This document shows, one piece after another, positions 18,205 to 27,372 of a stretch of 43,716 nucleotides of DNA; position 1 is the stretch's first letter; each line of letters starts with the position of its first letter. The notes beneath the pieces were generated by a model that was not told where the DNA came from, made no database searches, and saw only the letters and a list, made by a program, of their open reading frames with translations. A program made the translations under genes and the position numbers. This DNA is from Alphaproteobacteria bacterium (lineage in GTDB: Bacteria; Pseudomonadota; Alphaproteobacteria; Micropepsales; Micropepsaceae): contig JAFAVP010000164.1 in the NCBI GenBank assembly GCA_019242395.1, forward strand, positions 1 to 43,716, given 5' to 3'.

Positions 18205-18283
18205 GTAGGTATCCACTAATGCTCAGGGTGGAATTGCTGATGAAGCTCCGTTCAGGATATGCTTTAGCACCGGAGTGGGGCTC

Positions 18284-18745
18284 ATGTCTGACAATAGACG
18301 CGACGCGCTGAAACTGTCCGTCATGTCGGCGCTTGGCCTTGTTTCGGCTGCCGCGCTGGCCGGCTGCGATGGTGATTCCTACAAAACGCGAGGCGGGCCG
18401 CTATCTCCGGCCGCTCCGATTATCGGCTACGCCAATCACCTGTGGTACGTGTTCAAGCCGGACGGAACAGGGCGATACAAGGTCTACACGACCATCGCAC
18501 AGTATGGCTCCTCAAGCCCAGACGCGGTGCACTTCGATACCCAAGAGTACTGGGATCTGGCCATCCAGGCGAGCGGTGGGGGTGCTCTGACGCCTTTGCC
18601 AAGCGCCATATTCTCCGCTTGGGGGCAAACTTTCCGCACGGATTCGGATGCGTACTTGGACCAATCGTCCGCGACCAATCTGACAAGTGGGACCAACGGG
18701 CTGGCAAAAAGCGTCAGTTGGAACGAAATCGGCCATAAATCCTAG
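18284..18745 (+). CDS. Hypothetical lipoprotein with Tat-like signal
   Basis: A 153-residue protein. The N terminus, MSDNRRDALKLSVMSALGLV then a lipobox LAGC, combines a twin-arginine-like pair with a lipoprotein signal, so the mature protein is probably lipid-anchored outside the cytoplasm. The rest contains no motif I recognise; a YANHLWYVFKPDGTGRYKVY segment and a Ser/Thr-rich C-terminal half are visible. The ATG at 18284 follows GGAGTGGGG. The arsR cluster diverges from it. Nothing downstream indicates an operon. Confidence 0.65.
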   Translation: MSDNRRDALKLSVMSALGLVSAAALAGCDGDSYKTRGGPLSPAAPIIGYANHLWYVFKPDGTGRYKVYTTIAQYGSSSPDAVHFDTQEYWDLAIQASGGGALTPLPSAIFSAWGQTFRTDSDAYLDQSSATNLTSGTNGLAKSVSWNEIGHKS

Positions 18746-18829
18746 ATTTTCCGAAGCGATCACCTGCACGTCCGCACTGGGCACATAGCGGCCATGCACA
18801 AAAGCTATTCCTGTTTCGTTCTTCATGTA

Positions 18830-18844
18830 GAACAATAACAGAAC
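18830..18844. promoter_or_regulatory. LexA (SOS) box, alphaproteobacterial type
   Basis: GAAC-AATAACA-GAAC is an exact match to the GAAC-N7-GAAC form (GTTC-N7-GTTC on the other strand) of the alphaproteobacterial LexA operator. It lies 22 bp upstream of a 32-codon membrane-peptide gene with a perfect Shine-Dalgarno sequence, and about 200 bp upstream of dnaE. A GTTC at 18818-18821 forms an additional imperfect inverted repeat with the first GAAC. LexA binding is predicted, not shown. Confidence 0.65.
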
Positions 18845-18866
18845 ATATACCCTACAGGAGGAAGCA

Positions 18867-18965
18867 ATGGCGTTGATTCAGGATGCAGCCGCGGGCGCGA
18901 TCGTGGTGATTTTCATGGTGTGCTCCTTCGCGCTTGCGGGGATCGCGCAGGCGGCGCTCGGCTGA
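18867..18965 (+). CDS. Small SOS-associated membrane peptide, SidA-like candidate
   Basis: A 32-residue peptide, MALIQDAAAGAIVVIFMVCS then FALAGIAQAALG, with one hydrophobic helix (about residues 8-29), one Asp and no Lys or Arg. A perfect AGGAGG lies 5 bases upstream of the ATG, far better than most sites in the window. A LexA-type box lies 22 bp upstream. In Caulobacter the SOS-induced SidA is a 29-residue inner-membrane peptide that blocks division through FtsW; size, topology and predicted control match, but I cannot show sequence homology. It precedes dnaE by 85 bp on the same strand and might share its transcript. Such genes are usually missed by annotation. Confidence 0.65.
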   Translation: MALIQDAAAGAIVVIFMVCSFALAGIAQAALG

Positions 18966-19050
18966 AGATGCTGTGGACGGGCAAAACAGGCGCACCACAT
19001 TTCCTCGGTGGGTGGCCGATAATGCCGCTGACCGCGAAGAGTTCTGAGTG

Positions 19051-22000
19051 ATGGTGGGAGCGCGCAAACCGGCCGGCTTTGTCCACCTGCGGGTGAAGAG
19101 CGCGTACTCGCTGCTCGAAGGTGCCATTCGGGCGAAAGAACTCGCGAAGCTTGCGCGTGACAATGCCATGCCCGCGGTCGCAGTGACCGACGTCAATAAT
19201 CTCTTCGGTGTCTATGAGATCAGCGAAACTCTCGCGAAAAATGGCGTGCAACCGATTGTGGGGTGCTTGCTGGCGGTCGACTTCGATCCACCGCAGCCGG
19301 GCGCATCGTTTCAGCCGCGCCGCCCGCCCATGCTCCCCCTGCTGGCGCAGAACGAAACGGGCTATCGCAATCTCACCAAGCTGCTGAGCGCCGCGTATCT
19401 GTCCGTCGAACCGGGTGAATGGCCGCATGTGAAGCCCGAGCTGCTGGGCGCGCACGCAGATGGCTTGATCGCGCTAACCGGCGGACCCAGCGGGCCGCTT
19501 AATCGGCTGATTGTGGAGAACCAGGCCGAGGCCGCGGAAGCGCTGCTGGATCGCTTGTCCGTGATGTTCGGCAATCGCTTGTATGTCGAATTGCAGCGCC
19601 ACGGTTTGCCGGAAGAGCGCGCGTCGGAAGCTAAGCTTGTCGATTTCGCCTACAGCAAGTGCCTGCCGCTGGTTGCCACGAACGATGTGCACTTTGGGCC
19701 GGAGGACATGTACGTGGCGCACGATGCGCTCCTGTGCATCGCGGAGGGGACCTTCGTTTCGCAAGCGGACAGGAAGCGGCTGACGCGCGAGCACCGCTTT
19801 AAGACGGCAGAAGAAATGGCGGTGCAGTTCGCCGATCTGCCGGAAGCGATCGAGAACACGATCGAAATCGCCAAGCGCTGCGCCTTCCGCCCGAAGAAGC
19901 GCGCACCCATCCTGCCGAAATTCGTGCCGGAATCAGGCCGCACACCGGCGGATGAATTGCACGTACAGGCGGAGGAGGGGCTTTCGCGGCGCCTTGCGGC
20001 GCATGGCCTGCACGCGCCGGAACAGGTCTATCGCGACCGGCTGAAGTTCGAGCTGGACGTCATCATTCGCATGGATTTCCCCGGCTACTTCCTCATCGTC
20101 TCCGACTTTATGAAATGGACGCGCGCACACGGCATTCCGGTGGGGGTGCGCGGCTCCGGCGCGACCTCTCTGGTGGCGTGGTCGCTCGACATCACCAACC
20201 TCGATCCTATCCGCTTCGGTCTGCTGTTCGAACGCTTCCTCAATCCCGAGCGTATTTCGATGCCGGACTTCGACATCGATTTCTGCCAGGAGCGGCGGGA
20301 CGAAGTCGTGCGCTACGTGCAGCAGAAATACGGCAAGGATCGCGTCGCGCACATCATTGCGCTCGGTTCGTTGCAGGCGCGCGCTGCAGTACGGGACACC
20401 GGCCGCGTGCTGCAGATGCCGCTGGGTCTGGTCGACAAGATTGCCAAGCTCATCCCGAATCCGCCGGGAAAATCCATTTCGCTGCGGGATGCCTTGGAAA
20501 GCGAGCCGCGGCTGCAGCAGATCGGCGAGAACGAGCCCGCAGCGGAGCAGCTATTCTCGATCGTCTCGAAAATCGAGGGTCTCTATCGGCACGCCTCCAC
20601 GCACCCGGCCGGGGTGGTGATCGGCGACCGGCCTCTCGACGAGATCGTGCCGCTCTATCGCGATCCCCGCTCGGAAATGCCGGTGACGCAGTTCGATTAT
20701 GAGGATGCGGAGAAGGCAGGCCTGGTGAAATTCGACTTCCTCGGTCTGAAGACGCTCACCGTGATCGCGAAGGCAGAGGAACTTCTGAAGAAGCGAGGCA
20801 TCGCGCTCGATACGCAGAACATCGATTTCACCGACCGTGCCACCTTCGACATGCTGGCGCGCGGCGAAAGCGTCGGCGTGTTCCAGCTCGAGGGCGCGGG
20901 CATGCGCGACCTGATGCGCAAGATGAAGCCTGACCATATCAATGACCTGGTTGCACTGGTCGCGCTGTACCGTCCCGGCCCGATGGACTCGATTCCGAAA
21001 TACATCGCAGTGAAAAACGGGAAGGAGCCGCCGGAGTACCTGCATCCCGCGCTGGAGCCGATCCTGAAGGAAACCTACGGGGTCATGACGTATCAGGAAG
21101 ACGTCATGAACATTGCGCGCGAACTCGCCGGCTATTCGTTGGGTGAAGCCGATCTCCTGCGCCGTGCCATGGGTAAGAAGATCGCCTCCGAAATGGCCGT
21201 GCATGAGGAGCGCTTCATCAGAGGCGCCGGCGAACAGGGGATTTTGAAAGGCGTTGCGCAGCAGATATTCGAGCAAGCCGCAAAATTCGCGGGCTACGGC
21301 TTCAACAAGGGACACGCGGCCGCCTACGCGCAAGTAGCGTATCAAACGGCGTACCTGAAGGCCAATCACCCGGTTGAATTCCTTGCCGCCTCGATGACGC
21401 TCGACATTGGCAATACCGACCGGCTCAACGTTTTCGGGCAGGAGGCGCAGCGGCTTGGCATCGGCGCGGCACCACCGGACATCAATCGCTCGGAAGCGGA
21501 TTTCGCCTGCGATTCGGATGCTGGCGTGATCTATTACGCCCTTGCCGCGGTGAAGGGCGTGGGCAAGCAGGCAATGGAGCACGTGGTTGAGGTTCGCCGT
21601 AGCCGGGGCCCATTCGAAAGCATCGGTGATTTCGCCGCCCGCATCGACCCTAGGCTTGTCAACCGGCGGGCCTTCGAGAGCCTGGTACGGGCAGGGGCCT
21701 TCGACGCGCTGAATGCGAACCGTAGGCGCCTCGTGGAATCCGCCGACGCCGTTCTCAATCATGCCGCGCGCAGCACCCAGGATCGAGAAGCTGGGCAGGC
21801 AACCCTCTTCGGGGAAGTATCGTCCAAAGAACAGGAACTGCGGCTCGCAGACGTGAACGACTGGCCACCGCACGAGCGCTTGAGCGAGGAGTTCGCGGCG
21901 ATCGGCTTCTATCTTTCCGGGCACCCGCTCGATGGCTACCAGGCCGCACTGAAGCGCTTGGCCGCGGTCACTTACGCCACCATTCAGGAAGACCGCCGCC

Positions 22001-22485
22001 GCTCCGGTTTTCGCGTGCAGATTGCCGGCACGATCATCCGCAAGCAGGAGCGCCGCGGCCGCAGCGAGCAGCCCTACGCGTTCATCTCGCTATCCGACAC
22101 CACGGGCATGTTCGAGGTGATGGTGTTTTCCGAAGTGCTGACGGCGGCGCGGCCCTTCCTGGAACCCGGAAAGTCGGTTCTCTTTACGGTGGCAGCGGAT
22201 TGGATCGATGATGAACTCAGGCTGCGGGCCATTGCCGCGCAAGACTTGGACAAAGCCGCCGCTGAAGCGGGCGAGGGGATGCGCGTCTACCTGGAAAACG
22301 AGCGGGCGCTGGGGCCGATCTCGATGCAGTTGAAGAACGGCGGCAAGGGCATCGTGACTCTGGTGGTGCCGGCGAGCGATGGCCGCGAGGTGGAGATCAA
22401 GATCCCGCAACGTCAGCAGGTGAACGCCGCGTTGCGGGCGGCCATCAAATCTTTGCCGGGGGTTGCCGCGGTGGAGGCGGTGTGA
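19051..22485 (+). CDS. dnaE: DNA polymerase III subunit alpha (replicative, DnaE1)
   Basis: A C-family polymerase of about 1144 residues. An N-terminal PHP domain (FVHLRVKSAYSLLEGAI) is followed by the palm with catalytic Asps in MPDFDIDF (406, 408, 410) and KFDFLGLKTL (562), the finger motif YRHASTHPAGVVIGDRP, a helix-hairpin-helix region (ALAAVKGVGKQAMEHV) and an OB-fold near residues 980-1060. Length and motifs fit replicative DnaE1, not error-prone DnaE2/ImuC, and no imuA/imuB genes are adjacent. GTG-ATG-GTG codons at 19048-19056 leave the exact start open; I use the ATG. The LexA-type box upstream raises possible SOS influence. Confidence 0.95.
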   Translation: MVGARKPAGFVHLRVKSAYSLLEGAIRAKELAKLARDNAMPAVAVTDVNNLFGVYEISETLAKNGVQPIVGCLLAVDFDPPQPGASFQPRRPPMLPLLAQNETGYRNLTKLLSAAYLSVEPGEWPHVKPELLGAHADGLIALTGGPSGPLNRLIVENQAEAAEALLDRLSVMFGNRLYVELQRHGLPEERASEAKLVDFAYSKCLPLVATNDVHFGPEDMYVAHDALLCIAEGTFVSQADRKRLTREHRFKTAEEMAVQFADLPEAIENTIEIAKRCAFRPKKRAPILPKFVPESGRTPADELHVQAEEGLSRRLAAHGLHAPEQVYRDRLKFELDVIIRMDFPGYFLIVSDFMKWTRAHGIPVGVRGSGATSLVAWSLDITNLDPIRFGLLFERFLNPERISMPDFDIDFCQERRDEVVRYVQQKYGKDRVAHIIALGSLQARAAVRDTGRVLQMPLGLVDKIAKLIPNPPGKSISLRDALESEPRLQQIGENEPAAEQLFSIVSKIEGLYRHASTHPAGVVIGDRPLDEIVPLYRDPRSEMPVTQFDYEDAEKAGLVKFDFLGLKTLTVIAKAEELLKKRGIALDTQNIDFTDRATFDMLARGESVGVFQLEGAGMRDLMRKMKPDHINDLVALVALYRPGPMDSIPKYIAVKNGKEPPEYLHPALEPILKETYGVMTYQEDVMNIARELAGYSLGEADLLRRAMGKKIASEMAVHEERFIRGAGEQGILKGVAQQIFEQAAKFAGYGFNKGHAAAYAQVAYQTAYLKANHPVEFLAASMTLDIGNTDRLNVFGQEAQRLGIGAAPPDINRSEADFACDSDAGVIYYALAAVKGVGKQAMEHVVEVRRSRGPFESIGDFAARIDPRLVNRRAFESLVRAGAFDALNANRRRLVESADAVLNHAARSTQDREAGQATLFGEVSSKEQELRLADVNDWPPHERLSEEFAAIGFYLSGHPLDGYQAALKRLAAVTYATIQEDRRRSGFRVQIAGTIIRKQERRGRSEQPYAFISLSDTTGMFEVMVFSEVLTAARPFLEPGKSVLFTVAADWIDDELRLRAIAAQDLDKAAAEAGEGMRVYLENERALGPISMQLKNGGKGIVTLVVPASDGREVEIKIPQRQQVNAALRAAIKSLPGVAAVEAV

Positions 22486-27288: not shown

Positions 27289-27349
27289 GTTTCTCTCCTT
27301 GGGTACGCACCCAACCCGTCTTAACCATTTCCACGAGACGGCTGAACCA

Positions 27350-27372
27350 CGGCTGAACAGACCCTTCAGCCG
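27350..27372 (-). terminator. Possible terminator or processing hairpin after the upstream secreted-protein gene
   Basis: CGGCTGAA (27350-27357) pairs perfectly with TTCAGCCG (27365-27372) across a CAGACCC loop. It lies 25 bp beyond the stop of the minus-strand gene ending at 27397 and before the gene starting at 27288. Further copies of GGCTGAAC nearby (27340-27347, and in inverse at 27386-27393) allow alternative pairings. No T-tract, so the function is uncertain. Confidence 0.35.

Follow-up and report, generated by a model that had tools for sequence, protein, structure and literature searches.

A LexA-box, short membrane peptide and dnaE cassette in Alphaproteobacteria: a candidate diverged counterpart of the Caulobacter division inhibitor SidA

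Operator, peptide frame and dnaE at the locus

The window, that is, the whole stretch of 43,716 nucleotides analyzed here, carries on its forward strand a compact arrangement of four elements. An exact LexA-type operator, GAAC-N7-GAAC (GAACAATAACAGAAC, positions 18830-18844), is followed by the ribosome-binding site AGGAGG (18856-18861), by an unannotated 32-codon open reading frame, P0001 (18867-18965, stop codon included), and by dnaE (19048-22485), the gene of the replicative DNA polymerase III alpha subunit, which may start at GTG 19048 or at ATG 19051. The distance from the box to the ATG at 18867 is 22 bp. The identity of dnaE is given by its match to NF004226 (1386.6 bits, cut-off 1002). 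A putative second, degenerate operator lies in the opposite orientation at 18807-18821 on the minus strand, where the plus strand reads ATTCCTGTTTCGTTC, with one mismatch to GTTC-N7-GTTC. Directly 5′ of the cassette there is also a 156-codon ORF (18275-18745, plus strand) without any Pfam match.

The peptide encoded by P0001, MALIQDAAAGAIVVIFMVCSFALAGIAQAALG, contains neither Lys nor Arg. The AlphaFold2 model consists of one helix spanning residues 2-31, with a mean pLDDT of 94.5, and the membrane location is predicted from the hydrophobic sequence. The preliminary description of this DNA had set out the same layout (exact box, AGGAGG, 22 bp spacing, 32-codon single-helix ORF) and the same lack of Lys and Arg, and direct reading of the sequence confirmed both. 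It had also taken P0001 for a candidate SOS division inhibitor like SidA, described as a 29-residue, inner-membrane, SOS-induced and LexA-controlled peptide that interacts with FtsW (PMC4211646). Neither NCBIfam (E ≤ 1) nor Pfam (E ≤ 10) contained a family matching P0001. Nor was there a phage match that could point to a phage origin, the best PHROG matches reaching just E 0.56 and 0.36.

The LexA-type box as evidence

Motifs of the GAAC-N7-GAAC type are the alphaproteobacterial LexA operator. Two exact boxes were observed in the window, versus 1.03 expected, and at least two were found in 28 of 100 shuffles. The box alone was therefore rejected as evidence, since a count so near to chance proves nothing by itself and it is conservation that decides. 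The second exact box (27344-27358, plus strand) lies between two minus-strand ORFs.

Considering the whole genome, 33 exact sites of GAAC-N7-GAACA were counted, versus 14 for the reversed pattern, so that many of the 33 are probably of chance origin. The genome encodes LexA (170.8 bits, cut-off 110.95), and one box (C46:2771-2786, minus strand) stands 55 bp 5′ of the lexA profile match at C46:1978-2715, which ties the motif to lexA in this genome. Another box overlaps the 5′ end of an ImuA-like ORF (E 3e-14; 53.3 bits, below the cut-off of 150). A further one (G000:C197:2061-2076, minus strand, locus L306) starts 36 bp 5′ of an ORF, taken in its longest form, for an NrdJ-type adenosylcobalamin-dependent ribonucleotide reductase, which scored 388.6 bits on the cut protein against a cut-off of 399.95; its position suggests SOS control of dNTP supply. 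Apart from the imuA-like and nrdJ-like ORFs, no clear SOS gene was found at the nine boxed loci that were read.

Conservation and selection within the genus and the order

Of the 96 genomes searched from the order, 58 gave a tblastn match to the peptide at E ≤ 1. A profile search at E ≤ 0.1 gave 68, of which 62 belong to the window's genus, represented by 69 genomes. The seven genus genomes with no peptide match at E ≤ 0.1 were G028, G036, G040, G046, G053, G058 and G077, of which G053 is listed as 100% complete. Weak profile matches located within long frames were disregarded as probably accidental. All 62 genus loci were fetched and read. An exact box stood 5′ of the peptide in 61 of them, the exception being L022 (G020), and dnaE lay downstream in 60, while at L281 and L290 no dnaE was present within the downstream stretch of about 650 bp that was read. 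The cassette was also present in three genomes of a second genus (L298, L299 and L309). An extra, boxless peptide-like frame occurs about 1.3 kb upstream in G048 (L277 at 621) and G045 (L285 at 168; oriented coordinates in both cases), and was excluded from the counts.

The second operator seen in the window is also frequent in the genus: in the 45 bp preceding the main box, 57 of 61 loci carry GTTC-N7-GTTC with at most one mismatch (eight of them exact), against 2.7% in mononucleotide shuffles. Double operators of this kind could provide tight repression.

Concerning selection on the peptide, 56 sequences were compared over a core of 23 codons. The ratio pN/pS in the frame was 0.43, with no stops, and the other frames gave 1.24 and 1.62 (forward) and 1.17, 0.63 and 1.50 (reverse). 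One reverse frame is thus also below 1, at a value still above that of the true frame. The frequency of the major base at codon positions 1, 2 and 3 was 0.80, 0.84 and 0.60. From these sequence comparisons, the peptide ORF is a real gene under purifying selection on the protein. The lack of Lys and Arg in P0001 is, on the same alignment, a local change, because 52 of 57 aligned genus relatives carry Lys at the position of a Gln in the window peptide; in the other five loci this residue is Ser or Thr.

These data bear on two other explanations of the locus. That a chance ORF had come to lie behind a chance box would agree with the roughly one box expected by chance in the window, but it is refuted by the retention of the box at nearly every genus locus, the selection on the frame and the recurrence of the cassette across the class described below, and we give it practically no weight. 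Another explanation is that P0001 is a leader peptide, with its translation regulating the downstream dnaE and the peptide itself being functionless. A short ORF close before dnaE is what such a leader would look like, and small leader coding sequences are among those reported in Caulobacter from ribosome profiling (PMC4117421). The selection on the amino-acid sequence argues against it, as does the retention of the peptide in four related genomes (L325-L328) despite the insertion of one or two small genes between it and dnaE, the two inserted proteins that were scanned matching DUF3788. Moreover, SidA, which occupies the same slot, acts in trans, deletion of sidA being reported to suppress the filamentation of a lexA mutant (PMC12700426). 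A mere leader is thus very improbable.

The conservation check contemplated in the preliminary description came out in favor of its proposal: the association of peptide, box and dnaE is preserved in the genus and is found again in 12 other family labels.

The cassette across Alphaproteobacteria

In the class sample, dnaE was detected in 371 of 385 genomes, and 90 stretches upstream of dnaE, none longer than 810 bp, from 63 family labels were surveyed. These 90 are not a random sample, as they combine the 30 top-scoring dnaE matches with 60 hand-picked from about 150 listed places so as to spread the families, with f121 deliberately included. An exact box was found in 17 of the 90 stretches, and right behind it a short membrane ORF in 15 of the 17; in the other two (L134 and L148) the box was present and the ORF absent. 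By the longest start, these ORFs encode 26-47 residues, and they belong to f9, f18, f41, f82, f121, f123, f126 and f171. As controls on the same 90 stretches, each of six scrambled words occurred in none or one of the stretches and never with an ORF, and the reverse orientation GTTC-N7-GTTC gave nine boxes, three with ORFs, matches that may be partly real operators and partly chance.

Five further loci with the box/peptide/dnaE layout were found in f4, f70 and f91, so that, counting f1 and f63, the family labels with the cassette amount to 13. Mapped on a tree built from 49 DnaE sequences, carriage of the cassette required three changes, versus a mean of 14.4 in shuffles, with 0 of 500 shuffles as low; the rows of this tree were chosen, near-copies cluster in it, and its 17 non-carriers all come from the 30 best-scoring dnaE matches. 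Read with this composition in mind, the distribution of carriers on the tree agrees with inheritance in which gains and losses were few. At the level of genome sequence, the occurrence of a LexA-box/peptide/dnaE cassette under 13 family labels adds to the preliminary description; whether such a cassette had been described before was judged from open-licence literature only.

The slot before dnaE in Caulobacteraceae

The sidA gene is given as CCNA_02004 (PMC10769358) and the Caulobacter dnaE as CC1926 (PMC1839093). The location of SidA was approached through family f63. When DnaN proteins were compared with PDB entry 5wce, which we take to be Caulobacter DnaN, the identity was 76.6% for G370, with none of the 29 further genomes in that comparison above 59.8%, and it was 100% for G550 and G569; on these identities f63 was assigned to Caulobacteraceae. 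The same assignment was rejected for f121, with a DnaN 57.7% identical to 5wce.

Thirty f63 loci were read, being only the read part of a larger set of weak profile matches. There was dnaE in 26 of the 30, with an exact box upstream in 19 of these and none in seven. Behind the box, all 19 boxed loci had a membrane ORF that can be read as 29 residues. Two of these 19 peptides were scored with the curated SidA model NF033228 (cut-off 35 bits), and gave 72.4 bits (G550) and 50.8 bits (G520). In G550 (L330) the 29-residue SidA-model peptide ends 35 bp before dnaE, which means that SidA shares its slot with the window's peptide and bears out the statement of the preliminary description that sidA lies near dnaE. 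At seven f63 loci (L268, L269, L255, L258, L242, L316 and L320) the SidA-like ORF follows a pair of direct GAAC-N7-GAAC boxes separated by 16-25 bp.

The reach of NF033228 is narrow. It exceeded its cut-off in one of the 385 class genomes, and G370 and G157, which are f63 genomes with the full cassette, were below it. Among the named controls (Caulobacter vibrioides, E. coli, B. subtilis and Bacteroides) one was over the cut-off, presumably Caulobacter.

The nature of the peptide in this slot also bears on the explanation that P0001 is an SOS-induced membrane peptide similar to TisB or DinQ, one that perturbs the membrane and retards growth with no binding to the divisome. A LexA-type box before a short hydrophobic helix would suit such a peptide, and DinQ is presented as an SOS-regulated, toxic, single-transmembrane peptide (PMC3567139). 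On the other side, the slot is occupied in f63 by a peptide of the SidA model, and an antisense antitoxin is not evident at the locus: in crude scans of positions 18600-19200, Rfam gave no match at the gathering score and two matches far below it, and no promoter-like sites were found on either strand. A toxin of this kind appears improbable.

Homology of the window peptide to SidA

P0001 lies outside the SidA equivalog NF033228 both on score and on length (32 versus 29 residues): P0001 matched no NCBIfam family at E ≤ 1, NF033228 included, and the model gave no match at E ≤ 0.1 in the window's genome (G000). Direct comparison of the profile of the window family with that of SidA gave no match either (2.4%). 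The two were linked through intermediates, namely 14 peptides taken from the same dnaE slot in other families. The profile of the intermediates matched the SidA family with 96.6% (E 5e-10, 27 columns) and the window family with 89.9% (E 1.7e-6, 31 columns). When the columns of the intermediates were shuffled, either all of them or only columns 9-39, none of 150 shuffles in each scheme reached either score, and the reversed intermediates gave 0.1% and 4.7%. The pattern in common is roughly W-x-(K/R/Q/E)-(D/E)-x-x-A-(L/G). The window peptide is thus probably homologous to SidA, transitively via the intermediates, it being kept in mind that these sequences are short and hydrophobic. Together with the slot, the data make it well supported that the window peptide is a strongly diverged positional orthologue that would work like SidA.

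The extent of this divergence lends some force to the proposal that P0001 is an SOS-induced division inhibitor with another divisome partner, either FtsN, as for DidA, or FtsI, the drift being too large for the contact with FtsW to persist. The lack of direct profile similarity between the window family and SidA goes in this direction, and so do the reports that DidA binds FtsN and that SidA interacts in two-hybrid assays with FtsN besides FtsW (PMC4211646). Slot and operator, however, match those of SidA, and we consider a change of partner unlikely, though worth keeping in view.

Proposed function and significance

We consider it likely that P0001 acts in the inner membrane as an SOS-induced inhibitor of cell division and that it is a strongly diverged positional orthologue of Caulobacter SidA. 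The comparative sequence data support the view of the preliminary description that P0001 is a candidate of the SidA type. In the undamaged cell, LexA would occupy the exact box, possibly together with the second, degenerate one, and keep the promoter off. On DNA damage, LexA would be cleaved, the ORF led by AGGAGG would be translated, and the one-helix peptide would insert into the inner membrane. If it is analogous to SidA, the peptide would then arrest division by keeping the septal wall synthase complex FtsW/FtsI/FtsN inactive until LexA returns, with FtsW as the putative target. The window's genome encodes an FtsW-like protein (304.9 bits, below the curated cut-off of 337.5). The positive residue present near the N-end of most relatives is absent in P0001.

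The same transcript may also boost the supply of DnaE. The single forward terminator-like site in 18700-19150 falls within the peptide ORF, and none was seen between the peptide stop and dnaE, so that read-through is possible. More tentatively, and with about as much doubt as conviction or somewhat more, the cassette may be an old alphaproteobacterial SOS unit in which one promoter halts septation and raises the amount of the replicative polymerase; SidA would then represent, in Caulobacter, a checkpoint common to the class, in which the peptide has diverged too far to be recognised by sequence but has kept its slot.

Annotation misses peptides of some 30 residues, and the curated SidA model reaches close relatives only. 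The cassette in 13 family labels lies nearly wholly outside current models. If our reading is true, most carriers of the checkpoint are unrecognised, and they would be findable by operator and neighbour gene, not by sequence. The diverged peptides of these labels would offer a natural series of variants for studying recognition of the divisome by a bare transmembrane helix, and the constant linkage to dnaE makes SOS control of the replicative polymerase a testable question.

Comparison with known systems

The closest known system is SidA itself (NF033228; CCNA_02004), which, like the window peptide, is a short single helix encoded directly 5′ of dnaE behind GAAC-N7-GAAC, with profile similarity via the intermediates. 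The two differ in length (29 versus 32 residues), and the window peptide has no Lys or Arg and neither an NF033228 nor a direct profile match; a SidA-like activity would be attributed to it by analogy. DidA is likewise described as a small, single-transmembrane, DNA-damage-induced Caulobacter inhibitor that acts on FtsW/I/N; the same source gives it as 71 residues long, SOS-independent (under DriD) and binding FtsN (PMC4211646), whereas the window peptide has a LexA-type box.

Outside the class, YneA of Bacillus is presented as an SOS-induced division inhibitor with one transmembrane domain that works through FtsW (PMC13396833), as proposed for the candidate. It differs in having an extracellular LysM domain, and nothing suggests common descent with the window peptide. 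DinQ of E. coli resembles the candidate in being a very short single-transmembrane peptide under SOS control, according to PMC3567139. DinQ, however, has antisense small RNAs, of which there is no sign at the window locus, and it is not linked to dnaE, the neighbour that the window peptide shares with SidA.
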